DNA from: Pseudoalteromonas sp. Scap06
GTDB taxonomy: Bacteria; Pseudomonadota; Gammaproteobacteria; Enterobacterales; Alteromonadaceae
DNA length: 64,000 nucleotides
Reading direction: 5' to 3'
NCBI RefSeq assembly: GCF_013394165.1
Contig: NZ_CP041330.1
Span: forward strand, 2,224,501 to 2,288,500
In this document: one piece after another, positions 16,788 to 32,036 of the stretch
Layout of the letters: every line of letters starts with the position of its first letter
Numbering within the stretch: position 1 is the first letter of the stretch
Translations under genes and position numbers: made by a program
Notes under the pieces: model-generated
What the model was told of the DNA's origin: nothing
Database searches by the model: none
What the model saw: the letters and a program-made list of their open reading frames with translations, nothing else

Positions 16788-16917
16788 TGTTGTTTGAAGT
16801 GTAAGTTGGCATAAGATTGAAGCTTATAATGGCATAAAGTTACTAAATACAGGCTTTATGTAGCTAACCACTTAATAATACAGCCCAGTTTAGTTGACTG
16901 CTCTGTGCCTTGAGCAG
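16788..16917 (+). repeat. Left end of unit A with two TnsB-like sites
   Basis: Starts TGTTGTTTGAAG. Two similar 21-bp sites follow at 16794-16814 and 16817-16837, each of the form TTGAAG-N5-AT or GT-GGCATAA. The segment is homologous to 23403-23579 (left end of unit B) up to a shared GAGCAG. Compared with that copy it lacks about 47 bp, consistent with a deletion fusing the first two sites. TGT termini with serial inward sites are the hallmark of Tn7-type ends. Confidence 0.75.
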
Positions 16918-17033
16918 ACCTTGAAAATCTTTAATGTCCAAAATCAAGATTTGATAATCATATAGAAAGCTTCTCGAGTTTTTCGATACAGTTGTGTTGA
17001 CCAAAACATAAACTGTATTTCGAGGAGCTTGGT

Positions 17034-17887
17034 ATGAAACTATATGGTGGCATTGACTTGTATTCAAAAAATTTTGTTGTTGCTATCATTAATGAACAAG
17101 GTGAAACACTTACCGTTAAGCGTTTAAATAATGACATGTCTGTCATTTTATCTTTTCTAAGTCCTTATAAAGACAACTTAAAAGAGCTTGTTGTCGAATC
17201 AACATTTAATTGGTACTGGTTAGTCGACGCTTTAATGGATACAGAGTTTAAAGTCCACTAAAAACTTATTAATCAGTACAAAGTTGTTACATGCGACATC
17301 TTGGATATAAGCTCAGTAGCAACAAAATAAAACAAATGGCCGCTATCAGAAAAGGCGTTGATACTGAGCAGGTACATGCAGACTTTAGCTCAATGAATAC
17401 AGCACTGTCAGTCATTTCTAACCTCTCATTAATACGCTGTGCCCAACAGCAAATTAATGTGATAGAAGGCGCTATTTTAAAACAAACATCACTCTCCCCT
17501 GAGTTTATGAACCTAGCCAGTATTGATGGAATTGGGAATACCTTAGCACTGACCATTATGTTAGAGACAGGCACTATTAAACGTTTTAATAGCCCAGGGA
17601 ATTTCTCATCGTATTGTCGCTGTGTTAAAGGAGCAAGGTACAGTAATGGAAAGAAAAAAGGCGCTACGAATCAGAAGAATGGTAATCGTTATTTAGCGTG
17701 GGCTTTTACTGAGGCCGCTAATTTTGCCATTCGGTACAACCCGACAATCAAAAAATATTATCAACGAAAACTGGCTAAAACGAACCAAGTTATCGCAATT
17801 AAAACGGTTGCGCATAAGCTCGCAAGAGCCTGTTATCACAGGCTTAAAGATAATGTTCCATTTGATGAACACAAGGCTTTTTCCTAG
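17034..17887 (+). pseudogene. IS110-family transposase remnant, internally deleted
   Basis: The N-terminal part (17034-17261) has GGIDLYSKNF with the first catalytic Asp and VVESTFNWYW with the Glu of the DEDD RuvC-like domain. It then stops at TAA. The C-terminal part (17291-17887) has the Tnp_20 region: IDGIGNTLALTIMLETG, NPGN-type FSSYCRCVKGA, KKKGATNQKNGNRYLAWAF. Family members are about 330-340 aa; the two parts total 273 aa, so roughly 60-70 residues, including the later catalytic Asp pair, are missing. It cannot be active. It lies just inside the left end of unit A. A Shine-Dalgarno GAGGAGC precedes the start. Confidence 0.85.
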
Positions 17888-18582
17888 CGACGAAAAAACA
17901 AATTAGGTTAATGTGTTGAGCTAGTAATGGGGTTGGTAAAACCACTAGATTTGATTGAGCCTGCACGTTAACCGCTCATATTTTAAATACTGGATATGCC
18001 CAATGTTTGAGCCACCAAGGGCTGGTTATGTTCAAGCATAAACCACAGAATTGTTACAGCGCAGTGTGTAAACACAGCCAGAAACTGGACTGACATTGGT
18101 ACTAAACGATGACTGAGGCGAAAGCCAAGGGCATTAATTAATCATCAATAATGCTTAATTAAACTGCCTAAATTCATATCGCGTTTTTTACCTAAGCCAT
18201 AGTGCATATTCACACCAATCGACGTTATTACTAGGTGCGTAGTCATATTTAAATTGAGTTTAAACAATAAAAAACACTTAGTTTTTGAATAAAAGATCAA
18301 GGAAACACAGCTGCCTGCTTGACCGGAACTTTCTAATGGGTGACCCCATTCACTTCAAAAATATTAAAGGATGATTGGTGGCAACTAAATTGTGACCTTG
18401 AACTAAATTCTTCACCTGAATTTAAGATAGAAAAAAATCAGTATCTTTAAAAAAGTTTTATCAACTCATCTAAAAAACGTGGGTGCTCCAACAATTGTTT
18501 TTAGCTATTCCTTTCTTTTTTATTGGTGGTATACCTTGGTTAGTTTGGGGTGTTTCCGTGCGAATTTGATGCTGTTCGCGTG
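17888..18582. other. Non-coding stretch after the IS110 remnant
   Basis: Nearly 700 bp without a credible gene. The first 250-300 bp probably include the right flank of the IS110 element. IS110 elements keep a bridge-type RNA in one non-coding flank; the 115 bp before 17034 and this stretch are both candidates but I cannot fold them reliably. From about 18140 to 18580 the sequence is AT-rich and I see nothing further, apart from the promoter-distal side of the response regulator gene. Confidence 0.4.
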
Positions 18583-19197
18583 TTAAATTAGGTTTTGATT
18601 AATGGCTTTTATAACGGCCTGAGTGCGGTCTTCTACCTCTAACTTAGCAAGGATTTGTGACACATGATTACGAATAGTCCCCTCAGAGTTATCTAATTTT
18701 TTGGCAATCACTTTGTTCGACATGCCTAAAGACAAACACTGCAATACGGTTTGTTCTTTGCCTGTTAAGCAGAGCTGAGGGCTTAACTGCTTTTTGAGTA
18801 AAAAATCAGTCACCGCACTTTGCAATACTCGCTCACCTGCAACGACCTGCTTGATAGCGCTAATAAGTTCTTCAAGCTCAATGTTTTTAAGCACATACCC
18901 ACGAGCACCTAGATTAAGGGCTTTGACTAATACATCACAATCTTCAAATGTGGTAATGATCAGCACAGGGGTTTTATCACCCTTTTCACGCATTTTTTGC
19001 AGCACGCCGAGCCCATCTAAATTCGGCATTCTCATATCGAGTAAAGCAATGTCAAAACTATGCTCAGCTAATAGTGCAAGCGCTTGTAAGCCATCTTCAG
19101 CTTGGGCTTCGATATTAATGGCGCTATCGAGGTTAAGTAAATTAGCGAGGCCTAAACGAACTAAGGTCTGATCTTCAACTAGTAGGCACTTTATCAT
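18583..19197 (-). CDS. NarL/LuxR-type response regulator
   Basis: 204 aa. Receiver domain at 1-120 with acidic pocket VEDQ, phospho-Asp in IALLDMRMPNLDG, Thr in LIITTFED and Lys in GYVLKNIE. The C-terminal GerE-type HTH at about 140-200 has LTGKEQTVLQCLSLGMSNK and the recognition helix EGTIRNHVSQILAKL. It overlaps the upstream histidine kinase gene by 23 bp, forming a cognate pair. Pairs of this DesK-DesR/LiaSR type often control a neighbouring membrane gene, and the divergent acyltransferase is the obvious candidate. It is cargo of unit A. Confidence 0.92.
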   Translation of the reverse strand: MIKCLLVEDQTLVRLGLANLLNLDSAINIEAQAEDGLQALALLAEHSFDIALLDMRMPNLDGLGVLQKMREKGDKTPVLIITTFEDCDVLVKALNLGARGYVLKNIELEELISAIKQVVAGERVLQSAVTDFLLKKQLSPQLCLTGKEQTVLQCLSLGMSNKVIAKKLDNSEGTIRNHVSQILAKLEVEDRTQAVIKAINQNLI

Positions 19198-20332
19198 GGC
19201 TTTTTTCTTCTAAATTGAGTGGCAGTGTCATGGTATTGATCAGTGTTTCTTGCTCAAGGTGTTGTGAAAATTCACCGCCAAATTGTGCCATTCGCTCATT
19301 TAATCCTGCTAATCCATTCCCTTGTTTTGGTAAATGGGTCTCTGGCTGATTATGATACGCCTTTGCAATTAACAGCGGCTGTTGGCCAACGTGGGTGACA
19401 TTTACATGCAAAGTAAAATGGTTTGCTTGGGTATGTTTAAGGGTGTTGCTGATCATCTCTTGGGTAAACCGCAATACACACAGGGTATCGTCTTGAGGAA
19501 GCTGCTCTGTCTCCTTACTTAGTTGGAGATCACAGTGTAAATTAGGTGTCAGTTCGCAAATGGCCTCAAGAGCTTGCTTAAGAATCGTTTTGTCATTGCG
19601 TTGAGTGGAAACGATTTCGCGCACCTCAGCCAATACTTCTTGGCTAAGTTGGTGGCAAAGAGAGAGGGTTTCAACGGTGGCTTCATTTGCTGCTCTTTTA
19701 GCAAAATCTAAATTAATGCTGAGCGCGGTAAGCTTATGGCCGAGTGAGTCATGGAGCTCGCGTGATATATTTTGTCGCTCTTGCGCTGCATGCATCGCCC
19801 CCATCATGTGTTGGGTGGCTTTTAACTCTTTGTAGTTTTGGCGGGATTGGTAATGTGTATTTAAACTTTCGACAATACGCCGGCTAACAAACCAATTCAT
19901 CAAGCAAAAGAAAAACCAAATTGTAAACGTGACCCAAGGAATGCCATTTTCCCAGCGCGCATAATGCGTTAAACCATACACCAGCATGGCGGCCACAACG
20001 CAAGCCAGTATTTTAGGAAGCGAAAAATGAGGACTAAAAACCGCGGTAAACATCACTAGGTGGATAAAAACTAAGGATGTTGAACTCAGTTGTATCATTG
20101 CCAAAATAAGCAGGAAATAGCCAAGTGCTACGCCGTGAACAAATTTGTTAGGCTGTTTTAACACATACAGCAAAATAGCTAAAATGGAACCACTTACTAT
20201 GATTTGCAAATATAGCGCTAATTCTGAGTTGGCATAATAGGCACACGCCGATGTCACTCCAAGCCACGATGCCAATGTTGAGAAATGCCAATCGGTTGTA
20301 TGTCGTATAGTTGATTCCATTACTGTGGCCAT
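19175..20332 (-). CDS. DesK-like sensor histidine kinase
   Basis: 385 aa. Five or six membrane segments (about 15-160) have almost no periplasmic loop, so the signal is probably sensed in the membrane. The HisKA_3 dimerisation motif SRELHDSLGHKLTALSINLD holds the phospho-His. HATPase motifs are EMISNTLKHTQAN (N box) and GNGLAGLNERMAQFGG (G box). It is the partner of the overlapping response regulator. A candidate operator pair lies in the 126-bp gap to the divergent acyltransferase. Confidence 0.9.
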   Translation of the reverse strand: MATVMESTIRHTTDWHFSTLASWLGVTSACAYYANSELALYLQIIVSGSILAILLYVLKQPNKFVHGVALGYFLLILAMIQLSSTSLVFIHLVMFTAVFSPHFSLPKILACVVAAMLVYGLTHYARWENGIPWVTFTIWFFFCLMNWFVSRRIVESLNTHYQSRQNYKELKATQHMMGAMHAAQERQNISRELHDSLGHKLTALSINLDFAKRAANEATVETLSLCHQLSQEVLAEVREIVSTQRNDKTILKQALEAICELTPNLHCDLQLSKETEQLPQDDTLCVLRFTQEMISNTLKHTQANHFTLHVNVTHVGQQPLLIAKAYHNQPETHLPKQGNGLAGLNERMAQFGGEFSQHLEQETLINTMTLPLNLEEKSHDKVPTS

Positions 20333-20374
20333 ATTTTTTTAGCAATTATTGCAGAACTCGCGTTGTAAAAACAG

Positions 20375-20400
20375 TGACATCTGTCATAGCTCGGGCTATG
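20375..20400. promoter_or_regulatory. Candidate operator of the two-component system
   Basis: Two adjacent inverted repeats lie in the divergent promoter gap: TGACA-TC-TGTCA (20375-20386) and CATAGC-TCGG-GCTATG (20385-20400). Dyads of this kind are usual targets of NarL-type regulators, and their position between the kinase gene and the acyltransferase suggests control of both. Binding is inferred only from symmetry and position. Confidence 0.4.
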
Positions 20401-20470
20401 AGCTTTGTGACTAGTGCCATGAAACCTCATTCATTTATGCTTTATTAATAAAAAATAGTTGGGCACATTA

Positions 20471-21640
20471 ATGAATAAAGACAGTCGATTACATTACATT
20501 GATAATTTACGCAGCCTCGCGCTATTGCTCGGCATCGTATTTCATGCCGCTTTAGCCTACAGTCCGTTCTTTGGCAATATTTGGTTTACGGCAGACTCAA
20601 GCACACATGGTCTATTTGATTATATTACGCATACGCTGCACTTATTTCGGATGCCGTTATTTTTTATTATTGCAGGGTTTTGCAGTGCACTTTTAATAGA
20701 TAAATCGAGCAACGCGCGCTTTTTACATCATCGCAGTAAACATATTCTACTGCCTTTTATTGTATTTTTACCTTTAAGCTTTGCCGTTTACTACCATGCA
20801 TTGAGTTTTGGAGCCGGTATAGCTAATCCAATACCGCCGATTTTTGCTGTGTTTAAAGTTATTAAAGAGCCTGTTGTTAGCACTATGCACTTATGGTTTT
20901 TGTGGAACTTATTCCAGTTTTGCTTAATTCACTGGTTGTTGAAAACAACTAACTTATTAGGCAATAAATTCGATGCGCTTAGCGTTCACCCTTTATTTAT
21001 GTGGGTTGTACTTCCCATCGTGTTAACGTTTTCATTAATGGGGCAATCTATTCCATTTCCTGCTCCTGATAAACTCACGCCACAGTTATGGTCGTATGGT
21101 TTTTACGGCAGTTTTTATTGGTTAGGAGTGGGGCTTTATAAAAAACAGCAGCTCATTTGGTCATATCATAAGTACTTATGGCCTCTTATTTTGGGTATTG
21201 CAATATCGCTGACTGGTTATTTTTCTTTATTACCAGCCGCGCCAAGCTTAGATGAAGTGATTGCCGCCGCAACTTCGGGGTATTTTGCCGCAGCGGGAGA
21301 GCTACATGTATTACATGTTTTATCACAAGGACTGAGTGTTATTTTGTTAACCGCCATAACGTTTTTACTTGGGCATCGTTTTTTAAATCACCAAAGTAAG
21401 CTCAGTCGCAGCATCTCAAATGCATCATATTGGATTTATTTAATACATGTGCCAGTGCTGATTTATATTCAGATGCCATTGATTAATACTAATTGGCCAG
21501 TTTTAGTAAAGTTTATAGTAAGCGTGGTGGTTACATTGCTTATAGGTCAAATAAGTTATTTATTATTAGTTAAAAATATGTGGCTGGGCGCACTACTTAA
21601 CGGTAGGCAAACCAAGAGAAAGGTAATACAGTCAGCTTAA
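20471..21640 (+). CDS. Acyltransferase-3 family membrane protein (OpgC/OafA-like)
   Basis: 389 aa with about ten membrane segments. The family signature opens the protein: LHYIDNLRSLALLLGIVFH, with the catalytic-type His, then FRMPLFFIIAGFCSALL. HRSKHILLPFIVFLPL and SYWIYLIHVPVLI are further acyltransferase-3 landmarks. Members move acetyl or succinyl groups onto periplasmic glucans, O-antigen or peptidoglycan. The target here is unknown. I chose ATG 20471 over the TTG twelve bases upstream. It is divergent from the kinase gene and probably regulated by it. Confidence 0.85.
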   Translation: MNKDSRLHYIDNLRSLALLLGIVFHAALAYSPFFGNIWFTADSSTHGLFDYITHTLHLFRMPLFFIIAGFCSALLIDKSSNARFLHHRSKHILLPFIVFLPLSFAVYYHALSFGAGIANPIPPIFAVFKVIKEPVVSTMHLWFLWNLFQFCLIHWLLKTTNLLGNKFDALSVHPLFMWVVLPIVLTFSLMGQSIPFPAPDKLTPQLWSYGFYGSFYWLGVGLYKKQQLIWSYHKYLWPLILGIAISLTGYFSLLPAAPSLDEVIAAATSGYFAAAGELHVLHVLSQGLSVILLTAITFLLGHRFLNHQSKLSRSISNASYWIYLIHVPVLIYIQMPLINTNWPVLVKFIVSVVVTLLIGQISYLLLVKNMWLGALLNGRQTKRKVIQSA

Positions 21641-21693
21641 ATGTCGTTACTTGGTAATGACTTAAAAGCAGCACTACATAAAGGAATACTATT

Positions 21694-21993
21694 ATGCATG
21701 CAATAACAATCAAATCGACCATCGCCACGATTCAACAAGGGGCGGTTAAAGCAGACGGCAAATTTTGGCTAACCAACACCGATATTCATTTTGCGCCGTT
21801 GAATGCACAATTTGGGTTAGGGCCTTATATGTTTGCACGGTGTGAAATTGTAAAAGTGAGTAAGTGCTCTGGTAAAGTTTCGGGTATTTTGCCTTATACA
21901 CATGATGCAATTGAAATCGTATTAAAAGATGGTAATAAATATCAATTCATTGTCTCGAATCCAATTGAATGGATTAAATTAATTAACCAATAG
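21694..21993 (+). CDS. GRAM/PH-like domain small protein
   Basis: 99 aa. The pattern of short beta strands (GKFWLTNTDIHFAPLN, then VSGILPYTHDAIEIVLKDG and YQFIVSNPIEWIKLIN) fits the GRAM-like PH fold found in small bacterial proteins that bind membranes or lipids. No catalytic residues are seen. An AAAGGAA Shine-Dalgarno lies just upstream. It follows the acyltransferase by 53 bp and may be cotranscribed. Confidence 0.65.
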   Translation: MHAITIKSTIATIQQGAVKADGKFWLTNTDIHFAPLNAQFGLGPYMFARCEIVKVSKCSGKVSGILPYTHDAIEIVLKDGNKYQFIVSNPIEWIKLINQ

Positions 21994-22425
21994 TTTAAAG
22001 CACAAACGCTGGTAGCCCACAAAAATAACTATTGTTTTAATGTACCTAATAATGCACGATAAAATATATCACTATTTTATTGTGTATATAGTAAGCACAT
22101 GGATTTAATAAAAACGCTTTTGATTGACTGCTTCTCGCTCACTAGGGACTGTTAGATAAAATCAAAATCCTCTTTTCAAACTGAGATGTGGGCTACTACA
22201 AATATGTTATTAAATTTTTATGTAAGAGGAATTGGTAAAAAACAATCACCGGATAAGCTGTTAAAGTTTATTGGCATATAGCATCCGATTTATTTCAGTC
22301 ATTTAAATACCCACATCCATGTGGGTATTGAAATTACTAAAATATAATAGTTGGTTTTTAAAGGTAGCTTTGATTTTCGTTTTATATAACGCGGCCTAAA
22401 TAATGTTTTCTTTATCTAAATTAAC
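21994..22425. other. Intergenic stretch with a 24-bp palindrome
   Basis: No gene seen in 432 bp of AT-rich DNA. A perfect palindrome at 22306-22329 (arms AATACCCACAT / ATGTGGGTATT with only two bases between) could be an operator or cruciform. It is not followed by a T-run in the plus direction, so a normal terminator is less likely. Confidence 0.5.
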
Positions 22426-23013
22426 TTAATTAGAAAAAATATTATCGAGATCTTCGTCAATATAAACATCCGTTAATCCATTATCTTCTACAGCAGATTT
22501 AAACTTATCTGTACAATACAAACGAGAACCACCTGTAAATTTACTCTTAAAAACAGGCTTGTTTTTTACATCATCATTTATGAAAGCAATTTTGATATAA
22601 TCTAAAGGATAACCATCTAAATATTCGCGTTCACATTTTGCTTCATCTTCTAGTCCAAATGTACGCAAGTTAAAGATTACAATAGGTTCACCATCAGCTT
22701 TTGTTTCAATAAACTCACCTAAAGGCGCTAATAAATCTTTTAAAGCTTCATAAGCATTCATCCGAAGAGCGATAAACCCATCTATGATACTTATATCGTA
22801 GTTATCTTTTAGATAATCAGGTAAAAAAGGCAACTCATAACCTTAAGGCCATTACGCTAATAAAGAGTCGTTATTCATATGGATATCAAGTAGAAACATG
22901 CAAGCATCTTGATTAGATGGCAACATTGGTTGTATTTTTTCCGCGAATGAAAGTATGTCCCACTCAACCATGTCGTAAGAATTAGTAACGGGCTTTAACG
23001 AAAACAACTTCAT
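22426..23013 (-). pseudogene. Imm11-like immunity protein gene, interrupted
   Basis: ATG at 23011-23013 opens a 53-codon frame (MKLFSLKPVTNSYDMVEW...) ending in TAA at 22852. In the same frame, after WP and a second TAA at 22843-22845, the reading continues as GYELPFLPDYLKDNYD to 22426. The longer part has the layout of Imm11/DUF1629 immunity proteins (ALRMNAYEAL, then YCTDKFKSAVEDNGLTDVYI). Two in-frame stops a few codons apart, with both halves plausible as one protein, suggest a short deletion or mutation in a linker. A reinitiating downstream product is possible. The start overlaps the toxin-tail stop (ATGA), the usual toxin/immunity arrangement. Confidence 0.6.
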
Positions 23014-23147
23014 GATTTACTATCCCAATTAGCATTTTTACGCAGCATAACACTGGCTGGCATCTTATGATTTTTTATTTTCACGCCACGTAATGTATTT
23101 ATAAAATTGAGCTTATAGATTTTGTTTCTTGAATTAGTAAGCGCCAT
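23010..23147 (-). pseudogene. C-terminal tail of a polymorphic toxin, truncated
   Basis: The frame from ATG at 23145-23147 encodes 45 aa (TLRGVKIKNHKMPASVMLRK ... NANWDSKS) and stops in an ATGA overlap with the Imm11-like gene. Going upstream, the frame hits a stop inside the 243-bp repeat that begins at 23160, so the repeat boundary appears to have replaced the rest of the toxin. The toxin class cannot be named from the tail. Functionally dead as it stands. Confidence 0.5.
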
Positions 23148-23159
23148 TCTATTAAGCAA

Positions 23160-23402
23160 TTTTTAAAAGGTATTCAAAGAGGGAACCGTGCCTTAAAATG
23201 TTTGATTTGTAGCAAAAACCATAATATTTAACATAAATTTCTATGAAATTTATACTTTCAGTATTTGTATAAGAAATAAAACGCTGTCGGTTGGCTTTAC
23301 TTTATAAAAACATTAATTGAAAAAAGTTATTCTGATACAAGATTTAAGTAAAACTCACTTAAAATACATGGATTAATATTTGAAGAATTATAAGCACCCA
23401 AA
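23160..23402. repeat. 243-bp direct repeat, copy 1 (end of unit A)
   Basis: Matches 30488-30730 without gaps and with about ten substitutions by eye. Both copies end in GCACCCAAA, which in copy 2 is the distal arm of the ffs terminator. Copy 1 abuts the TGTTG end of unit B. No coding frame or TnsB-like site is visible in it. It is either the ffs-proximal end module of the element or captured ffs-downstream DNA. Confidence 0.9.
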
Positions 23403-23579
23403 TGTTGTTTGAAGCATAAGTTGACATAGGCACATTAGATTTCATTGAGCTACAAGTGAAGTGTAACTTGGCATAATATTGAAGCATATAATGGCATAAA
23501 GTTACCAATTACAGGCTTTATGAAGCCAACTAAATAAAAATACTACCAAGTTTAGTTTACTGCTATGTGCCATGAGCAG
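23403..23579 (+). repeat. Left end of unit B with three TnsB-like sites
   Basis: TGTTG terminus followed by three related sites: 23409-23428 (TTGAAGCATAAGTTGACATA), 23456-23476 (GTGAAGTGTAACTTGGCAT..) and 23479-23499 (TTGAAGCATATAATGGCATA.). The rough consensus is TGAAG-CATAA-TTGGCATAA. Several same-orientation sites of about 20 bp behind a TGT terminus are the structure TnsB binds in Tn7 and in I-F3 CRISPR-associated transposons. Homologous to 16788-16917. Confidence 0.8.
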
Positions 23580-23668
23580 TCATTCATGATTAACTCGTTT
23601 CTGCCCCATTCCCACTTAGAATGTTCGCTCATTATCTGTTCATGTGGTGTTGTCATACCTGGCTTCAT
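23552..23668 (-). pseudogene. Unrecognised coding tail reading into the left end
   Basis: From ATG at 23666-23668 a 38-aa frame (MKPGMTTPHEQIMSEHSKWE ... CSWHIAVN) ends at TAA inside the conserved left end. The copy in unit A keeps the same last residues in frame (CSRHRAVN, then stop), so both elements once had a gene ending here. It could be the 3' end of a transposition or cargo gene that was next to the left end. I do not recognise it, and a chance frame remains possible. Confidence 0.3.
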
Positions 23669-23742
23669 CCAAAAAATGTGGAAGCGTTACACTTATCAGG
23701 GTCAATACCTTAACCAAAGGAGTGAAATACCTAGAAATGAAA

Positions 23743-23770
23743 AATGACCAGTCAAGCAAATCTGGTCATT
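23743..23770 (-). terminator. Terminator of the secreted-protein gene
   Basis: AATGACCAG and CTGGTCATT pair perfectly around a 10-nt loop, and on the minus strand the stem runs into TTTTC. It follows the gene ending at 23803. Confidence 0.75.
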
Positions 23771-23802
23771 GTAATTAGTCTGGGGTTCGTAGTGTTTTGA
23801 TG

Positions 23803-24600
23803 TTAGTCAACTAGCTTCGGAACATCGCCGCTGAGGTCGATCCAAGGGTTAGTACCTAGGGTCTCAGTACCTTGCACACTTGGTTCTTCGTAACGCATCT
23901 CAAAGTTTTTAGGACCGTGTGCATATGCAACAACCAAACCATAAGGTGCATCTAAGAAACCTCCGTGAGGGCCTAGTCCAGGGTAACTAATTCTCCATGC
24001 ATCACCATCCGTTGATACATAGCCCAGAGTTAGTTTACCTACTACATTATTCGCTAGCGCGAAAAACCATGTCCACTCCCCACCTGACACTATAGTCATC
24101 ACTTCATCAATACCCTGGCCATTGTCTGAACTATTGACATGCAATTTGCCAAATTTCTCCTGTAAATAGTGCATAACTTCTGGAGTCATTGCTTTCATAT
24201 CATAAACCTTTGGATATGGAGCAACGCCAACTTCAGATGTCGACAAGAAGCCGCCTCTGTGTACCTCTGGTACTCGGCCAGCTTTCTTGATTTGATCCAA
24301 TAAGTCACCGCGATGCATAGAAAAGAGTGAGATTAGTTTCTCGGTTTCTTTCTTTGTAATAGCTCTTTTTTTGGATATTTCGAGGATAGGCTTAGCCTCT
24401 TCAGGTAGGGGAACCCTACTAACTCGTACTCCAACAGTTTTGAGCACTTTGTTTACTTTTTCAACTCCTCGCGTCGGCACTCGACCATCACTGTAAGACA
24501 AGGTAAGTTGGCCCTCTGTTGATATCGTTTTCGCTACGCTTTGTGCGACCGGCATAGTGGCAATCGCGCTCACTAAGACTAAGTTAATTAATTTTTTCAT
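23803..24600 (-). CDS. Secreted protein of unknown function
   Basis: 265 aa. A clear signal peptide (MKKLINLVLVSAIATMPVAQ, cleavage near VAKT) predicts export to the periplasm or outside. The mature part has a basic helical region to about residue 110, then a Gly/Trp/Tyr-rich half (SGGEWTWFFAL, YPGLGPHGGFLD) that looks like a compact beta domain. No cysteine pair or known motif was recognised. It is divergent from the DMT transporter over a 292-bp gap containing LysR-type palindromes like the one at the LysR gene, so it may belong to that regulon. Confidence 0.75.
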   Translation of the reverse strand: MKKLINLVLVSAIATMPVAQSVAKTISTEGQLTLSYSDGRVPTRGVEKVNKVLKTVGVRVSRVPLPEEAKPILEISKKRAITKKETEKLISLFSMHRGDLLDQIKKAGRVPEVHRGGFLSTSEVGVAPYPKVYDMKAMTPEVMHYLQEKFGKLHVNSSDNGQGIDEVMTIVSGGEWTWFFALANNVVGKLTLGYVSTDGDAWRISYPGLGPHGGFLDAPYGLVVAYAHGPKNFEMRYEEPSVQGTETLGTNPWIDLSGDVPKLVD

Positions 24601-24689
24601 TATTCGCTCTCCTGACGGATTATAGGACGGTGAGTTGTGTTTTCAGGCCTAAGTGTAGGAGTTGTGCTAAATCAAATAAACAGCACTCA

Positions 24690-24708
24690 GGTAAACTAAT
24701 TGTTTACC
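24690..24708. promoter_or_regulatory. Palindrome with the same arms as the LysR-gene operator
   Basis: GGTAAAC-TAATT-GTTTACC: the same heptamers as at 26793-26809, in the opposite arrangement. It lies in the divergent gap between the secreted-protein gene and the DMT transporter. Confidence 0.4.
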
Positions 24709-24773
24709 AACAGTGAATTAATGACATTTAGATAGATTAATTCTGAGTAATTCACTATGAATTGTTTACTCTT

Positions 24774-24790
24774 GGTAAATAGTTAAATTA
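24774..24790. promoter_or_regulatory. Second copy of the LysR-type operator motif
   Basis: GTTTACTCTTGGTAAAT matches the 17-bp palindrome GTTTACCATTGGTAAAC at the LysR gene in all but a few positions and has the same spacing. It lies about 100 bp before the DMT transporter start. Confidence 0.45.
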
Positions 24791-24892
24791 CTAAATGGAT
24801 GTTTAATTAGTAAAGACGGCTGTTAGGGTTAAGTTTATGGTACTTAACCATTAGTAGAGAACTTCCCCTCTCCTTAAATAGATGGTCTCGAT

Positions 24893-25780
24893 GTGAAAAA
24901 TATTAAATATCACCTTTTGTCCTTATTAGTGACAGCACTGGTTGCAGGATCTTTTTTATCTTCAGAAAAACTATCCGGTGTAATCAATCCATTCTCCTTA
25001 ACGTTATTGAGGTTCCTGCTTTCAGCGCTGGTATTACTTCCTTTTATTCTAACAAAGAAACGTTTTCTCAAAATAGCGAAAAATGTTTTTCCTAGAAGTC
25101 TTATCATGAGCCTTTTCTTTGCAATCTTCTTTATATGTATGTTCATGGCATTGGAGACAACCACGGCATTAAACACAGGAACATTGTATACATTAGTGCC
25201 ATTTATTACTGCCATTGTCAGTGTTTTCCTCTTTAAGGAAAAATTATCAATTCCGATGCTTGGCGTTTATTTGCTAGGGGCTATAGGTACATGCTGGGTG
25301 ATTGTGCAAGGAAACTTAGAGACATTATTGAGACTGAACCTCAATAAGGGAGACATCTTATTTTTGCTCGGCTGTATCTCTATGGTGTGCTTCTCTGTCT
25401 CGATGAAAGTTTTTCATCGTGGAGAAGAAACCATTGTTACCGTATTTTGTACTCTGTTGGGAGGTGCCTTCTGGATGATGCTAGCATTGTTTGTATTCCA
25501 TCAACCACTAGACTGGTTTGCCTTAAATGCCGAGCTTGCCCTGCACATGCTATACCTCGCTTTGTTTGCGACTTTGGTCTCAACCTTTATCATCCACAAA
25601 ACTACTATTGTACTGGGGCCTGCAAAAGTGATGGCCTATATTTATCTAAGTCCTGTATTTGTTGCGTTTATCATGTTTTTATTTCAGGGAAAAAGTATAC
25701 CTACAGCGGTATATCCGGGTATTGCATTATCCATCTTTTCTACAGTGATATTACAGCTGGCGAATAGTAACGCCAAGTGA
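24893..25780 (+). CDS. EamA/DMT-superfamily transporter
   Basis: 295 aa with ten membrane segments in two EamA repeats, typical of drug/metabolite exporters (RhtA/YdcZ-like). The first repeat ends near IGTCWVIVQGN and the second near STVILQLANS. The start is GTG at 24893; an ATG two bases earlier is out of frame. The substrate is unknown. The gene sits between LysR-type palindromes and the LysR gene, so export may be part of the same stress response. Base composition and flanking repeats mark it as cargo of unit B. Confidence 0.85.
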   Translation: MKNIKYHLLSLLVTALVAGSFLSSEKLSGVINPFSLTLLRFLLSALVLLPFILTKKRFLKIAKNVFPRSLIMSLFFAIFFICMFMALETTTALNTGTLYTLVPFITAIVSVFLFKEKLSIPMLGVYLLGAIGTCWVIVQGNLETLLRLNLNKGDILFLLGCISMVCFSVSMKVFHRGEETIVTVFCTLLGGAFWMMLALFVFHQPLDWFALNAELALHMLYLALFATLVSTFIIHKTTIVLGPAKVMAYIYLSPVFVAFIMFLFQGKSIPTAVYPGIALSIFSTVILQLANSNAK

Positions 25781-25803
25781 AACTAAGTCTGTTGAAAAAC
25801 CTG

Positions 25804-25830
25804 GCCACCTTCTCGCAAAGGTGGCGTTTT
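25804..25830 (+). terminator. Terminator between the DMT transporter and lysR-type gene
   Basis: GCCACCTT and AAGGTGGC pair around a 6-nt loop, followed by GTTTT. It separates the convergent genes. Confidence 0.7.
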
Positions 25831-25868
25831 CATGTTTAAGTAAGCAATTGGATAGGAGATTATGAAGG

Positions 25869-26768
25869 TTAATGTTGTTTTCTTTCGAAGTGTTTGACGA
25901 CAAAATCAATAAAAGCCCTGACTTTTTGAGACTGCTCTTTATGGAAAGGGTAAACAACATACAGTGAATGATCTTCCACTTGCCACATCGGTAAAATCTC
26001 AACTAATTCTCCAGATTCTAACTCATCATTAACGAATAAATCAGGCAGTAACAAAATACCATGGCCTGCGCACGCTGTTTGCTTGAGTGCTAACCCGTTA
26101 TTTACCACGTAAGAGTTAGGTGGAAGTTCGATCTCTTTGACTTCATCCTCATTTCTGAATAGCCAGCGTCTTGCTGATGAAGAGAAACTGTATATGAGGC
26201 ATTTATGGTGAGCGAGATCTTCAGGCTTGAGGACCTTACTGCACTTTGAAAGGTACTCCGGAGAAGCACAAAGCACTCTTCTCATATTGATAAGCTTTCG
26301 GGATCTCAGGCTGGAGTTACTTAGTTCGCCCCCACCCCTAATTGCAATATCAATTCCTTGTTCAATTAGATCGATATATTGGTCGCTCATGACAATTTCA
26401 ACAGATAACTCGGGATGTTGATGCATGAATTCACAAACGATGGGGTTAATTTCTAAAAGGCCTAAGGACATAGGAACACTTATTTTCAGTGAGCCTTTTA
26501 AGATATCAGAGGACTCCATAACGGATAAATCAGCATGTTTCAAATCATCTAATATGTTGCAAACTTGTCTATAATAAAGTTGTCCATTATCAGTAATATG
26601 CATGTTGCGAGTAGTACGGTTGATCAACGGACTTTTAAGATAGTCCTCCAGCTCATTAATATTCTTACTAATAGCGGCTTTTGATAGGCTTAAATCTTCT
26701 GCTGCCGCTTTGAAGCTTCCTAGTTCCACAACCCTTCTGTAAACGGTTAGAGCCCTTATTTTATCCAC
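25869..26768 (-). CDS. LysR-family transcriptional regulator
   Basis: N-terminal winged HTH (IRALTVYRRVVELGSFKAAA, then LSKAAISKNINELE) and a C-terminal substrate-binding domain (GSLKISVPMSLGL, IDIAIRGG, GHGILLLPD). I chose GTG at 26766-26768 (299 aa): it is preceded by GAGG at good spacing and gives MDKIRALTV, the usual family N-terminus. The ATG at 26799-26801 would add 11 residues and would lie inside a perfect palindrome that looks like the operator. It is divergent from the FMN reductase-Dps-GHR-DsbA group, the usual layout for an activator and its target. The inducer is unknown; a quinone or oxidant is likely from the targets. Confidence 0.9.
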   Translation of the reverse strand: MDKIRALTVYRRVVELGSFKAAAEDLSLSKAAISKNINELEDYLKSPLINRTTRNMHITDNGQLYYRQVCNILDDLKHADLSVMESSDILKGSLKISVPMSLGLLEINPIVCEFMHQHPELSVEIVMSDQYIDLIEQGIDIAIRGGGELSNSSLRSRKLINMRRVLCASPEYLSKCSKVLKPEDLAHHKCLIYSFSSSARRWLFRNEDEVKEIELPPNSYVVNNGLALKQTACAGHGILLLPDLFVNDELESGELVEILPMWQVEDHSLYVVYPFHKEQSQKVRAFIDFVVKHFERKQH

Positions 26769-26792
26769 GACAACCTCATTTAACTCTCTATT

Positions 26793-26809
26793 GTTTACCA
26801 TTGGTAAAC
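26793..26809. promoter_or_regulatory. Candidate LysR operator
   Basis: GTTTACCATTGGTAAAC is a perfect 7-bp inverted repeat with a 3-bp centre, containing a T-N11-A LysR box. It lies in the gap between the regulator and the divergent redox operon and recurs in related form at 24690 and 24774. Confidence 0.6.
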
Positions 26810-26914
26810 TATTTTGTTACTAATATATAGTTTATTCATCATAAGTGGTCAATTAATATTTATTGTAATCGCCAACGCAAGAGGTTGGTCTCAAATATTA
26901 GATAGGATGAAATC

Positions 26915-27454
26915 ATGAAAAAAGTACTCGCATTTTCGGGAAGTAATCATAGCCAATCAATTCATAATACTCTGATTCGCGCGTTAGCAGCTTGTGCTGC
27001 TCGAACAGAAGTGACTATTTTGGATTTGACTGATTTTGATTTACCAATGTATAGCATTGATGTGGAGTCAAAGGGTATCCCTACTGATGCAATAAGGCTG
27101 AGACAAGTACTAGTTGAGCACGATGCTTTGATTATCGCCTCACCGGAACACAACGGATCTATGCCTGCATTCTTAAAAAATGTGATTGACTGGCTTTCAC
27201 GTGTTGCTGAACCAAGTAAGCCCTTTTTTGGTAGCGATAAGAAGCCCGTTCTTTTAGTCAGTACCTCTCCTGGACCAAATGGTGGTGCAACCAATCTCAA
27301 AACGATGGCAGAGTTAATGCCATGGTGGGGGGGTGATGTTAAAGGTTCATATAGTTTAGGGAGTTATCAAGAGAAAAGTCATGAGGGTGAGTTTGACCAG
27401 AAAACAAAAATAGAGCTGAAAGCTCTGATGTCTTCCTTTGAATATTCACTGTAG
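26915..27454 (+). CDS. NADPH-dependent FMN reductase
   Basis: 179 aa flavodoxin-fold reductase of the ChrR/YieF/ArsH-type superfamily. The FMN phosphate loop is [15 protein letters not shown] near the N-terminus, followed by [20 protein letters not shown] and the [10 protein letters not shown] region. Members reduce quinones, chromate, azo dyes or free flavin by NAD(P)H. First gene of the operon divergent from the LysR regulator; the Dps gene follows after 10 bp. Confidence 0.88.
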
Positions 27455-27464
27455 GAGTATAAAT

Positions 27465-27929
27465 ATGAAAGTAGATATTGGAATAAATGAACAGGATCGA
27501 GTTGTGATTGTAGAAGCGCTTAAACGCCTTCTAGCAGACTCATACACCTTATATTTGCAAACACATAATTTTCATTGGAATGTTACTGGCCCCCAATTTC
27601 GCGAGCTACACCTTATGTTTGAAGAACAATACAACGCATTGGCAATCGCCGTCGATGATATTGCTGAGCGAATCCGAACACTGGATGAAGTTGCGCCTGG
27701 GACTTACAAAGCGTTCGCTAAACTGAGTTCAATTGCTGAAGTCGATGGCGTGCCTGCGGCGACGGGAATGGTATCTATTCTTATTCGTTCTCATGAAAAA
27801 GTAGTTAAGACTTGCAGAGACGTGCTGAGATTGGCTCAAGATGGGGATGATGAATCTTCTGCATCATTGGTCTCTGATCGAATGCGAGAGCATGAAAAAG
27901 CGGCATGGATGTTACGTTCAATGTTGTGA
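27465..27929 (+). CDS. dps: Dps-family ferritin (DNA protection during starvation)
   Basis: 154 aa. The ferroxidase motif [20 protein letters not shown] and [11 protein letters not shown] give the conserved His, Asp and Glu ligands at the dimer interface. Dps dodecamers oxidise Fe(II) with peroxide, store iron and shield DNA. ATG 27465 has a TAGGAG Shine-Dalgarno at the right distance and is preferred over the in-frame start at 27438. The N-terminus is short with little of the lysine tail that binds DNA. It is in a redox-stress operon, unlike the usual stand-alone dps. Confidence 0.92.
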
Positions 27930-27950
27930 GTCAAATTTATCACTGTATAC

Positions 27951-27988
27951 CTCAACAATGTAACGTTGAGTAAAAGTTCACGTTACAT
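27951..27988 (+). other. Alternative hairpins between dps and the GHR gene
   Basis: CTCAAC/GTTGAG (27951-27956 with 27965-27970) and ATGTAACG/CGTTACAT (27958-27965 with 27981-27988) share bases, so only one can form. No T-run follows, which leaves processing or attenuation within the operon as options. Confidence 0.3.
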
Positions 27989-28020
27989 TAGTCTCTGTTT
28001 CAAGTACTTAGGAGTAACGA

Positions 28021-28902
28021 ATGGCTGTATTAGAAAAAGGGATATGGTATCCCAATAAAGAAGCAAATAACTTGTCTAATGAGGACAGCTTCGAACTGCC
28101 GAAAGCCGCTGAGCAAGGGCGATATCACTTGTATATGTCGTTTGCTTGCCCTTTTGCTCATAGACCTTATCTAGTGATCAACTATTTGGGGTTGAATAAT
28201 GCAATCACTGTTTCTTCTGTTGCAGCAAAACGATATTCCGACGGATGGTTATTTGACGACTTCAACGCGGATCCTTTGTATAGTTCTCAAAATCTGGTAG
28301 AACTTTACCAACGAGCAAATCCAAATTACACAGGAAGAGTGACAGTACCTGTACTTTGGGATAAACAAGAGCATACCATTGTAGGTAATGACTCCTCTTC
28401 GATAGCGATGGAGTTAGCTACCAAATGGTTACCTTTAGCTAAGAACAAAGTTGAATTGGTTCCAAATAGTCTGCGAGAAGAAATAGAGAAGCTCAACGAG
28501 TGGTTGCATCTTAATGTGAATCGAAAAGTCTACCACGTTGGTTTTGCCACAGTTCAAGCAGAATATGACCAAGCCAGTGACACCTTGTTTGATGCTATGG
28601 GGAAGCTTGACAGGAGACTAAATCAAACTTGTTATCTAAATGGTTCGAATATTACTCTATCGGATCTATTTTTATTGCCAACACTTGTCAGGTTTGAAGC
28701 GGTTTATGAAGTTCATTTTAAGGCTAATAAAGAGCCGCTAAAAAATTTCGAGAACTTATACCGCTATATGTTGGATTTACTCAGTGAAGAGAGCATCAGA
28801 AAAACGATTGATATCGAATACATGAAGCAGCATTACTACTTCTCGCACAAGCACATTAACCCACATGGAATCGTTCCAGCAGGGCCTGACATCAGTTGGT
28901 GA
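28021..28902 (+). CDS. Glutathionyl-hydroquinone reductase (Xi-class GST)
   Basis: 293 aa. The Xi-class signature is FACPFAHRPYLV with the catalytic Cys (usually CPWAHR), and the C-terminus has HKHINPHGIVPAGP, nearly diagnostic of the YqjG/ECM4 family. These enzymes remove glutathione from glutathionyl-hydroquinones, using a second glutathione. The Trp in CPWAHR is Phe here. Length is slightly below the usual 310-330 aa. A GGAG Shine-Dalgarno lies upstream. It fits with the FMN reductase in a quinone-detoxifying set. Confidence 0.85.
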   Translation: MAVLEKGIWYPNKEANNLSNEDSFELPKAAEQGRYHLYMSFACPFAHRPYLVINYLGLNNAITVSSVAAKRYSDGWLFDDFNADPLYSSQNLVELYQRANPNYTGRVTVPVLWDKQEHTIVGNDSSSIAMELATKWLPLAKNKVELVPNSLREEIEKLNEWLHLNVNRKVYHVGFATVQAEYDQASDTLFDAMGKLDRRLNQTCYLNGSNITLSDLFLLPTLVRFEAVYEVHFKANKEPLKNFENLYRYMLDLLSEESIRKTIDIEYMKQHYYFSHKHINPHGIVPAGPDISW

Positions 28903-28934
28903 ACCAGTAATATTTTCAACCTTGGAGAAAAGTA

Positions 28935-29570
28935 ATGAGCAAAAAGATTAGAGTCGATTTTTTTCACGATGTCATTTGTGGGTGGTGTTATGTTTTGTCA
29001 GCTAGACTACGCCAACTTGCAGAAGAGTTTAATTTAGATATCCATCATCATGCATTTGCTTTGTCAGCCACACGGGAAGAAATGATTGGCAAGTTTGGTT
29101 CAATGAAGCAAGCAAAGCAAATCATTTTGGGGCACTGGGAGCAATGTGCGCGTGCCGACGATAACAAGCGCGTTAACGTCGAAGGGATGCGTCAGCAGAA
29201 GTTTGAATACCCATTTTCAACGCCAGGTTTGGTGGCATGTAAGGCCGCCGAACAACAGGGAGGAGCCAGTGCTTACTGGAACTATTTTGATGCTGTAACA
29301 CATGCACATATGAGTGAAAACAGAAATATCGGTGATTTGGACGAGCTTATAGAAACTGCCGGTGAGGTTGGGCTAGATAAACCTCGTTTTCTTGATGACT
29401 TTGCTTCTTCTGAACGACAAACTGAGATACAACGCGATAGGAAGTTAGCTCAAGAATATGGCATTACTTCTACGCCAACGCTGATTATCAATAAAAGGTG
29501 GGTTGTTCCGGGGGCTCTCGATATCAATGCACTACGTGAAACACTAAAAGAGATAGCAACCAAGGTTTGA
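28935..29570 (+). CDS. DsbA-family oxidoreductase (FrnE-like)
   Basis: 211 aa thioredoxin-fold protein with an inserted helical domain. The active site near residue 13 is DVICGWCYVLS, a CGWC redox pair. TSTPTLIINKRWVVPGA carries the cis-proline loop. There is no signal peptide, so it is cytoplasmic, like FrnE and polyketide-linked DsbA homologues that handle disulfides or isomerise thiol adducts. Last gene of the operon, followed by a terminator. Confidence 0.85.
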   Translation: MSKKIRVDFFHDVICGWCYVLSARLRQLAEEFNLDIHHHAFALSATREEMIGKFGSMKQAKQIILGHWEQCARADDNKRVNVEGMRQQKFEYPFSTPGLVACKAAEQQGGASAYWNYFDAVTHAHMSENRNIGDLDELIETAGEVGLDKPRFLDDFASSERQTEIQRDRKLAQEYGITSTPTLIINKRWVVPGALDINALRETLKEIATKV

Positions 29571-29611
29571 CTTCCACTGAAAGTCTTGTTAGCTATTTAC
29601 ACTGCTTTTTT

Positions 29612-29640
29612 GCCAGCTGGATTGCTGGCTCTTTTATTTT
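29612..29640 (+). terminator. Terminator of the redox operon
   Basis: GCCAGC and GCTGGC pair around a 6-nt loop and are followed by TCTTTTATTTT. Confidence 0.75.
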
Positions 29641-29813
29641 CGCATGAATTATCCTGATCCATGCCACCCACACTAGAAAAAGGCCCGAGGTCACTTCTGT
29701 CCAAAAAACAAGTTTACTCGACAGTTTGCTTTTCGCTAATAGCCGAACTTCGCAAATTTCTAGAATTAAGTTATGGTTAGATAATAACAGCTCTTATATT
29801 TTGGGAGTTTAAT

Positions 29814-30101
29814 ATGGCTAAAACAATAAAAACTAGCAGCACCATTGATAAATCGGAGAGTTTCGATTATGAAAATGTAAAAGCTGCATTAGATGGTCGG
29901 CTGTCCGTAGATGATCTTAGAGCAGCTGAACAAGGTGTATTTATGAATAATTTTGACGAAGCTATAAACTCTAATTTAGAACAGGATTTTTCTAAGCATT
30001 TTGAAAAACTGAGCAGTAACGAAAAACTTTATGGCTTAGATGATAAGGATAAAATTATCTGTGAAACAAGAAATAGATCAAGTATGAATAAACACAAATA
30101 G
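29814..30101 (+). CDS. Small acidic protein of unknown function
   Basis: 95 aa. The start at 29814 has a GGGAG Shine-Dalgarno eight bases before it. The sequence is helical and acidic in the middle (VKAALDGRLSVDDLRAAEQG) with a hydrophilic tail. No family was recognised. It has its own promoter region, separated from the redox operon by a terminator, and ends before a strong bidirectional terminator shared with the CRISPR array, so it is in the part of unit B where the transposition machinery would be expected. Confidence 0.6.
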   Translation: MAKTIKTSSTIDKSESFDYENVKAALDGRLSVDDLRAAEQGVFMNNFDEAINSNLEQDFSKHFEKLSSNEKLYGLDDKDKIICETRNRSSMNKHK

Positions 30102-30130
30102 CTCATACCTTAATTAAAGTTGAATAAAAA

Positions 30131-30157
30131 GACCCCAGCGTTTGCTGGGGTCTTTTT
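30131..30157. terminator. Bidirectional terminator
   Basis: GACCCCAGC and GCTGGGGTC pair perfectly around GTTT, with TTTTT on one side and AAAAA on the other, so it works in both directions. It ends the 95-aa gene on the plus strand and the CRISPR transcript on the minus strand. Confidence 0.88.
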
Positions 30158-30158
30158 A

Positions 30159-30367
30159 TTTAGCCTCTGCCTTTTCGGCAGTTAAAAGTCACAAGTTGTG
30201 CTTGTTTACTTCCTGGCCTAATTTCAGCTGCCTATTCGGCAGAAGATACACGTGTAGGAACTACACGACTATTTTCTAAATTTTCAGCTGCCTACTCGGC
30301 AGTTCACAAAAAGGCTCACAACTTCCCGCTTTGCTGTACATTTTCAGCTACCTACTCGGCAGCTCAC
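30159..30367 (-). CRISPR. Type I-F3-like CRISPR array, four repeats, last two divergent
   Basis: Read on the minus strand, 28-nt repeats at 30340-30367, 30280-30307 and 30220-30247 are exactly 60 bp apart with 32-nt spacers, the type I-F geometry. The first two read GTGARCTGCCGAGTAGG..GCTGAAAAT and resemble the repeat of Tn7-CRISPR element Tn6677, with stem CTGCC/GGYAG. The third starts differently, and the fourth (about 30159-30186) is further degraded but keeps CTGCC-GAAAA-GGCAG. Divergent terminal repeats around a private homing spacer are characteristic of I-F3 transposons. No cas gene adjoins the AT-rich leader side (30368-30487). Confidence 0.88.
30168..30227 (-). ncRNA. Predicted homing guide RNA directed at ffs
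   Basis: Built from the 8-nt handle CTGAAATT of the third repeat, the 32-nt spacer 30188-30219, and about 20 nt of the fourth repeat. The spacer (minus strand AGGCCAGGAAGTAAACAAGC, then ACAACTTGTGAC) matches ffs at 24 of 32 positions, starting at its first base. Mismatches are at 6, 12, 13, 15, 18, 19, 24 and 25. Cascade flips out every sixth base, so mismatches at 6, 12, 18 and 24 are tolerated. It is the element's own targeting RNA by this evidence. Expression and processing by a Cas6 encoded elsewhere are inferred. Confidence 0.8.
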
Positions 30368-30487
30368 TATAAAAAGTAGTTTAAATTTTTATAAATAACA
30401 AACTGTTAAGTGATTTTTATATTTTTACACTTTACTTTTACCTAATCGTATAACTTATTAAAAGCATTATTAATATTCGATTGCTAC

Positions 30488-30730
30488 TTTTTAAAAGGTA
30501 TTCAATGAAGGAACCGTGCCTTGAAATGTTTGATTTGTAGCAAAAACCATCATTATTAACATTAATTTCTATGAAATTTATACTTTCAGTATTTGTATAA
30601 GAAATAAAACGCTGTCGGTTGGCTTTACTTTATAAAAACATTAAGTGAAAAGAGTTATTCTGATACAAAATTTAAGTAAAACTCACTTAAAATACATGGA
30701 TTAATATTTGAAGAATTATAAGCACCCAAA
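30488..30730. repeat. 243-bp direct repeat, copy 2 (joins ffs terminator)
   Basis: Second copy of 23160-23402. It begins immediately after the CRISPR leader region and continues without a break into the ffs terminator. No gene is seen in it. The sharp start at both copies, in unrelated left contexts (a toxin tail and a CRISPR leader), shows that it is a discrete unit. Confidence 0.9.
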
Positions 30731-30745
30731 TGAGGAGTTTGGGTG
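30723..30745 (-). terminator. ffs terminator
   Basis: CACCCAAA and TTTGGGTG pair around a 7-nt loop at the 3' end of the SRP RNA. The element junctions fall in this loop, so each insertion keeps the distal arm on its far side. The T-run after the stem is weak. Confidence 0.7.
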
Positions 30746-30856
30746 GCAGTCTTACCAGCCACATCTCGGCACACACGTCACAAACTGTGGCTGCTCCCTT
30801 CCGGGCCTGACCAGGTTCGCCTGCTAGTGTTGCGAGAGGACCAATAAGACTACCAT
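30742..30856 (-). ncRNA. ffs: 4.5S SRP RNA
   Basis: Small SRP RNA that binds Ffh for membrane targeting of nascent proteins. The minus strand holds the conserved M-domain hairpin CAGGCCCGGAAGGGAGCAGC, as in E. coli. The closing helix is visible: GGTAGTCTTA at the 5' side pairs with TAAGACTGCC at the 3' side, with one G-U. About 115 nt, ends estimated from that helix. A good promoter lies upstream. Its 3' end is the attachment site of the Tn7-like units. Confidence 0.93.
30777..30808 (-). other. Protospacer of the homing guide within ffs
   Basis: The 32-nt match lies in the conserved M-domain hairpin, where mutation is constrained. The two bases 5' of it are TC, against the CC of classical type I-F, compatible with the relaxed PAM of I-F3 systems. 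Its PAM-distal end is about 47 bp from the element junction at 30730/30731, and these systems insert about 48-50 bp downstream of their target. Confidence 0.75.
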
Positions 30857-30882
30857 TGAGGGCCTTGGTTGGCGCGATTGAG

Positions 30883-30911
30883 ATTATCTCTACTTTTGCT
30901 CTGTTATTCAA
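30883..30911 (-). promoter_or_regulatory. ffs promoter
   Basis: On the minus strand TTGAAT, a 17-bp spacer and GATAAT, followed by a GC-rich discriminator-like CGCGCC, as at stable-RNA promoters. Transcription would begin about 20-25 nt before the mature 5' end, implying 5' processing. Confidence 0.75.
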
Positions 30912-30985
30912 GGGATAATCAAAAAAGAAAGTGCGATTGCATACTTCATATACAATCGCAGTCTATTTGGGTGTTAAAGCGATTA

Positions 30986-31864: not shown

Positions 31865-32036
31865 ACGAACTCCATAAATATAAAAATGCGATACTGTTTA
31901 GAGTACTCTAAACAGGTTTAATTCATAACTTACACTAATATTTATTAATGTAGCTAATGTATCCTTTGATTCTTCTAGCTTAAAGACTTACAGTGAATAA
32001 ATAAAGTAAAGACAGTGAACAGTTTAAATACGTAAT

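Follow-up and report, generated by a model that had tools for sequence, protein, structure and literature searches.

A probable fossil homing guide of an I-F3b CRISPR Tn7-like transposon beside ffs in Pseudoalteromonas sp. Scap06

Introduction

The closest described systems to the locus that we report here are the type I-F3b CRISPR Tn7-like transposons. In the accessible text of a review, ffs is assigned to I-F3b elements, and atypical guides are described as ones that only the transposon system uses efficiently (PMC11406308). According to the available part of another paper, a TC PAM is found in 96.6% of ffs cases (PMC12774636). I-F3b ffs guides with atypical repeats have already been published, as these same parts of the two sources make clear (PMC11406308, PMC12774636). 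A literature search, whose coverage leaves out most subscription papers, returned no paper whose title concerns I-F3 guides that are orphaned or decayed, and we found nothing on orphan or remnant elements in the accessible parts of two further papers (PMC10293859, PMC12452197).

Here, we analyze an array beside ffs within a 64,000-nucleotide stretch of the Pseudoalteromonas sp. Scap06 genome ("the window"). We think it very probable, from comparison of sequences, that this array is what survives of the distal part of an I-F3b CRISPR Tn7-like transposon, which we call E2, and that its guide is now a fossil. The locus is of specialist value, for the route of decay, for the way in which elements have followed one another at ffs, and for the accompanying data set of guides and targets.

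The array and its match to ffs

The array lies on the minus strand of the window at 30159-30367. It has four repeats and three spacers of 32 nt each, exactly as the initial annotation had placed them (Table 1). With two mismatches allowed, the repeat pattern finds three of the four repeats in the genome, plus one lone two-mismatch site elsewhere. Searches of spacers 1 to 3 against phage and plasmid sequences gave short, non-significant matches or none (best E of 0.3 for spacer 1 and 3 for spacer 2). For spacer 3, the best match among 7.3 billion bases was 23 of 25 nt (E = 0.2; against phages alone, the best E was 3), so no better target was found that would refute the ffs reading. The inverted repeat within spacer 2 is perfect, with a 3-nt loop (30251-30267). 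The hairpin that follows the array was not listed by the consensus inverted-repeat scan.

Table 1. Features of the window around ffs, in window positions.
Feature	Position	Strand	Remark
Older element E1, remnant	16788..23402		Left end at 16788, CCCAA before it; no array, no right end
Second cas6 fragment and copy of X, directly left of E2	23159..23402		Agrees with the right copy at 234 of 245 aligned columns
Left end of E2, the newer element, TGTTGTTTGAAG...	23403..23602		CCAAA directly before
E2 remnant, cargo and array	23403..30730		EamA, LysR, FMN reductase, ferritin-like/Dps, GST, DsbA-like
Terminator-like hairpin with T run after the array	30126..30157		Read by eye; present in relatives
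R4, terminal atypical repeat past the ffs guide	30159..30187	-	29 nt as cut here
Spacer 3, ffs homing guide	30188..30219	-	24/32 to ffs; orthologous in 22/108 genomes, own included
Repeat R3	30220..30247	-	5' bases (in RNA) unlike relatives; stem intact
Spacer 2	30248..30279	-	Search gave no target; holds 7-bp inverted repeat
Repeat R2	30280..30307	-	
Spacer 1	30308..30339	-	No convincing target
R1, leader-side repeat	30340..30367	-	
Leader region	30368..30500	-	79% identity to intact G064 over 124 bp
3' fragment of cas6, reading frame disrupted	30497..30651	-	tblastn, residues 183-198 of 199, 100%, at 30544-30497
Sequence X, joins cas6 fragment to ffs	30652..30725		74 bp, ends at the CCAAA insertion point
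CCAAA, 5-bp target sequence at ffs terminator, insertion point	30726..30730		Transposon right end absent
ffs (4.5S SRP RNA), attachment gene	30750..30846	-	Rfam RF00169, E 1.8e-14
Protospacer within ffs	30777..30808	-	PAM TC

We confirmed the proposed match of the last spacer to ffs, with 24 of 32 positions identical. The mismatches are at positions 6, 12, 13, 15, 18, 19, 24, and 25. The binomial probability of such a match within the ffs gene is 5.5e-7, and none of 300 shuffled spacers reached 24 matches anywhere in the 64-kb window (the best reached 23), so the chance check leaves the match standing. With ffs as the attachment gene, a TC PAM, and insertion ~50 bp downstream of the protospacer, the locus has the geometry of an I-F3b element. 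The match had been placed about 47 bp from an element junction: the distance (46 bp) holds, but with the right end gone, 30726-30730 marks only the insertion point and not a surviving transposon end.

Comparison with intact I-F3b elements

Like I-F3b elements, the window has I-F repeats and a terminal spacer that lies between atypical repeats and targets the adjacent attachment gene. The start of R4 (CTGCCGAAAAGG) is common to 22 of the 108 genomes of the genus (at most 3 mismatches over the whole pattern).

The intact relative G064 encodes Csy4, Csy3, a Csy2-containing Cas8/5-type protein, TniQ, a TniB-type TnsC, TnsB, and TnsA between its array and ffs. The full order is left end, cargo, array, cas6-cas7-cas8/5-tniQ, cargo, tnsC-tnsB-tnsA, right end, ffs. 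The closest PDB entries to its TniQ and Cas7 are 7u5d and 30ga, which we take to be the A. salmonicida and Pseudoalteromonas transposon complexes. All seven of these CAST genes are also present in G101 and G083. The intact elements are bounded by inverted repeats, TGTTGTTTGAAG at the left end and CTTCAAACAACA at the right, and 5 bp of the ffs terminator are duplicated beside them (CCCAA in G101, CCAAA in G064).

Because orthologous guides are present in the genus and the machinery is intact in G064, spacer 3 is the known I-F3b ffs homing guide and not a new system. This supports the initial annotation of an I-F3-type array with an ffs homing guide as its last spacer, as the guide is common to intact elements. 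The window shares with I-F3b elements at ffs the atypical terminal repeats, the guide in last position, the TC PAM, the left-end motif, the 5-bp target site in the ffs terminator, and a cargo island. Unlike them, it lacks tniQ-cas8/5-cas7, tnsABC, and the right end, it retains only a fragment of cas6, and it holds two truncated elements in succession.

The element of G064 (L072/L073) resembles E2 in its 117-bp guide unit (95.7% identical), in a neighboring 95-aa ORF (94%), and in the flanking histidine-kinase and DUF3014 gene families, but it is 18.2 kb long and has the full machinery and both ends. The guide of the window has one mismatch more than that of G064, at position 19. The leader is less well preserved than the guide unit (Table 1). 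Such good preservation of the guide unit counts against a fossil guide, as it could reflect continued use; it could also reflect recent loss of the machinery.

What the window element has lost

The genome is assembled in two contigs (4.13 Mb) and is rated 100% complete. Three Pfam models found no Csy3, Csy4, or Cas1 in the assembled genome, so we call the array an orphan, in agreement with the initial annotation. When the seven G064 proteins were compared to the window with tblastn, the only match was to the last residues of cas6 (Table 1), and there was no match to any tns gene. (The similarity to the cas6 region at the DNA level extends to ~30651.) In other words, the window contains neither the tniQ-cas8/5-cas7-cas6 operon nor the tnsA-tnsB-tnsC genes at the right end that are expected of an I-F3b element. 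Nor does it have paired ends with TnsB sites and a 5-bp target duplication: it has left ends only, and the right end was not found in window bases 1-34000 with up to 5 substitutions of its motif. The genome has three matches to TnsA and five to TniQ, none of them in the window, and these therefore belong to other Tn7-like loci. The TnsA matches, at C1 587605, 2847046, and 3322564 of the window genome (G000), mark three further Tn7-like loci that encode TnsA and TniQ proteins.

As the right end and the Cas and Tns proteins are absent, we infer that the guide cannot move its own element and is most likely a fossil. The idea that the guide still serves homing was not supported, given the loss of the right end and of the genes for transposition and Cas proteins, and given that 7 of 10 decayed elements (see below) do not have the guide. 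The Cas genes may instead be encoded by DNA that is missing from the assembly, but this is set against its completeness rating.

We also considered whether the array derives from an immune type I-F1 CRISPR system, with an incidental match to ffs. The repeats of I-F1 and I-F3 systems are alike, and other genomes of the genus contain a stronger-scoring group of Csy3 proteins (1e-99 to 1e-154), which we assign to I-F1. However, the cas1 and csy genes expected of I-F1 immunity were not found in the window genome (Csy3, Csy4, and Cas1 were searched), and intact transposons carry orthologs of spacer 3 and of its atypical repeat. Also, the PAM in the window is TC, while the canonical PAM of I-F1 is CC. 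An I-F1 origin is contradicted by these results and extremely improbable.

Two successive insertions beside ffs

The array was thought to sit in its own transposon island, and the left ends at 16788 and 23403 bear this out. The island (16788-30730) consists of two successive insertions, and the right side is missing from both. The sequence to the left of the older element, E1, is 85% identical over 188 bp to the ffs flank of G100, which has no transposon end there. The cargo of E2 (24062-29707) is 86% identical to the Vibrio coralliilyticus plasmid p337, in 3 pieces that cover 47% of a 10-kb query; this is a sign, as far as sequence similarity goes, of transfer between genera.

In the window, ffs is joined to the cas6 fragment by sequence X, and a second copy of the cas6 fragment and X lies directly to the left of E2. 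The two copies are identical at 72 of their first 80 aligned columns and at 162 of the last 165, which is the pattern that a crossover inside cas6 would leave. Because a copy of the cas6 fragment and X adjoins the left end of E2, it appears that E1 was truncated first and that E2 was then inserted between X and ffs.

Within the genus, X is found in the window genome (twice), in G092, and in G068, and there is also a 28-bp match in G103. Among 98 ffs flanks, it matches only those of G000 (the window genome itself), G068, and G092. (These searches of 98 flanks left out eleven genomes whose ffs is too divergent, which were read separately; G060 has an N in ffs.) G092 has the cas6 fragment, X, and ffs in the same arrangement, with no array there; G068 does as well, with a shorter part of cas6 and with the ffs spacer alone as its array. 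Because G092 and G068 share this arrangement, the junction of the cas6 fragment and X is, on this comparison, either older than the split of the three lineages or exchanged among them.

Two other identities for X were rejected. First, X is not a degenerate right end: intact right ends have TnsB-like motifs that, judged by eye, are lacking in X. (A tally of right ends on the 98 ffs flanks used loose motifs, and its 45 positives mix at least two types of end.) Second, X is not the empty-site flank of this lineage, as it is the flank to the left of E1 that matches G100 instead.

We propose the following history for the locus. E1 would have inserted at ffs and been truncated on its right before E2 arrived. 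E2, a type I-F3b element, would have inserted next to the truncated E1, between X and ffs. Everything in E2 from the 3' part of cas6 to the insertion point would then have been removed, and the lost part replaced by a cas6 fragment, X, and ffs like those resident beside E1, probably by recombination within cas6 with an E2-free copy of the locus. The last spacer is the old homing guide, as its orthology shows, and it may still be transcribable. On this history, the locus is a worked example of the death of an RNA-guided transposon, with the machinery side lost by deletion or by allele replacement. Decay of this kind would leave the left end, the cargo, and the homing guide, and elements would succeed one another at one site.

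A family of ffs guides in Pseudoalteromonas

When the array region was searched as DNA against the 108 genomes of the genus, 32 of them gave matches, some to just the hairpin or to single repeats. A stricter pattern (the guide plus the terminal repeat) was found in 22 of the 108, including the window genome. Csy3 is encoded on the same contig as the guide in 19 of these 22; the window genome, G055, and G068 have no Csy3. Three possible arrays, L069-L071 (in G087, in G013 at 1855001, and in G041), had no match to window 23001-33000 at 1e-6. Among named records, the guide pattern returned 10 loci, all from Pseudoalteromonas, and a search of 394 genomes across the order returned, besides the window, one match with 3 mismatches in G210. 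(This guide-like match, at L220, C95 13478-13527, is in a different family of the order.)

All 22 guides have a TC PAM. The 22 pairs of host and guide are a resource on how guides track their target, on which positions are free, and on how long guides survive without their transposon. The initial annotation held that the mismatches to ffs cluster at flipped-out positions, and this is borne out both by the guide in the window and by the 22 pairs: position 6 is mismatched in 21 pairs, 12 in 22, 18 in 22, 24 in 21, and 30 in 6. Overall, 92 of 110 flipped positions are mismatched, compared to 84 of 594 elsewhere, a contrast that is inflated because the search pattern fixes some of the non-flipped positions. 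At the pattern's 12 free non-flipped positions, the rate (76/264) is still far under that at flipped positions. (For G018 and G107, this tally uses their own ffs, while an earlier comparison of guides to ffs used a stand-in for both.)

The base in the guide is nearly fixed at two of these positions, with T in 21/22 guides at position 12 and A in 21/22 at position 18, and ffs is never matched there. Such fixation is not expected from drift at free positions, although common descent may explain part of it. One idea is that selection, and not drift, accounts for the near-invariant mismatches at positions 6, 12, 18, and 24. Positions 6 and 24 of the guide vary, yet they agree with ffs just once each.

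Guides have 528 matches to the ffs of their own host. When hosts were permuted, the mean was 505.8 and the maximum was 525, so that in 0 of 5000 permutations did swapped ffs genes fit as well; this is suggestive only, because the hosts and the elements are related and kinship was not controlled for.

Decayed elements and survival of the guide

We read 14 ffs-side loci that were picked by hand for lacking Csy3 or the guide, including all three of the orphans that bear a guide. Fragments of CAST genes were found by tblastn in 10 of the 14 (the window, G013, G022, G055, G066, G068, G079, G085, G092, and G102). G075 has tnsABC over the whole length, with two of the three genes in pieces in two frames, and tblastn found no CAST genes in G082, G086, or G106. 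The guide was kept in 3 of the 10 decayed elements, a proportion that is biased by our deliberate inclusion of the three orphans. On these hand-chosen loci, 3 of 10 does not support the idea that the guide is selectively retained. As the guide sits at the end of the array that is farthest from cas, deletions on the right-hand side spare it.

The other two orphan arrays, in G068 and G055, are like that of the window in having an ffs guide with the terminal atypical repeat in a genome without Csy3, but the ffs spacer is the sole spacer that they have left. G068 also shares the region of the cas6-fragment/X junction with the window. In contrast, a right end and a fragment of tnsA are still present in G055.

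These orphans raise the possibility that the array is maintained to supply its guide in trans, steering incoming I-F3b transposons to a harmless site at ffs. The guide unit in the window is better preserved than the leader, G068 and G055 retain this spacer and no other, and successive insertions at ffs are seen, all of which would fit. But the guide was kept in so few of the decayed elements (among loci that were chosen, not sampled), and its position in the array lets right-hand deletions spare it. Furthermore, G055 has no leader, as read by eye. Finally, the three orphan guides carry 4, 5, and 6 non-flipped mismatches, which is more than the 2 to 5 of the 19 other guides (one-sided Mann-Whitney p = 0.025, with n = 3 and kinship uncontrolled). 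We consider maintenance for this role to be decidedly unlikely. It is also unlikely, if slightly less so, that orphan ffs arrays are transcribed and loaded by the TniQ-Cascade of an incoming I-F3b element, thereby steering the newcomer to ffs. If this were true, a dead element would shape the landing site of live ones, and homing guides would outlive their transposons and stay usable.

Alternatively, a left end, a guide, and a right end could form a miniature transposon that is moved by helper proteins. G055 has the guide, the right end, an eroded candidate for a left end, and only a fragment of tnsA. G013 (L236 14198-19864) and G085 (L235, 12266-19864 of the reverse complement) have both end motifs beside ffs and only fragments of tnsA, but no guide. 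On the other side, no matching target duplication was seen in G055, which again has no leader. For the window, this explanation was rejected, as the right end is missing, and overall it seems very improbable. A fossil guide in the remnant of E2 is still our preferred reading. It is possible that the elements of G013 and G085 are non-autonomous.

A second type of sequence that ends in approximately CTTCAAACAACA occupies the same place beside ffs in 17 genomes (counted by eye), such as G106 (L232) and G086 (L233). None of these 17 genomes has the ffs guide. In G106 and G086, there are no G064-like Tns proteins within 20 kb, and genes for a phage-type integrase and a Y2/IS91-type transposase lie nearby.
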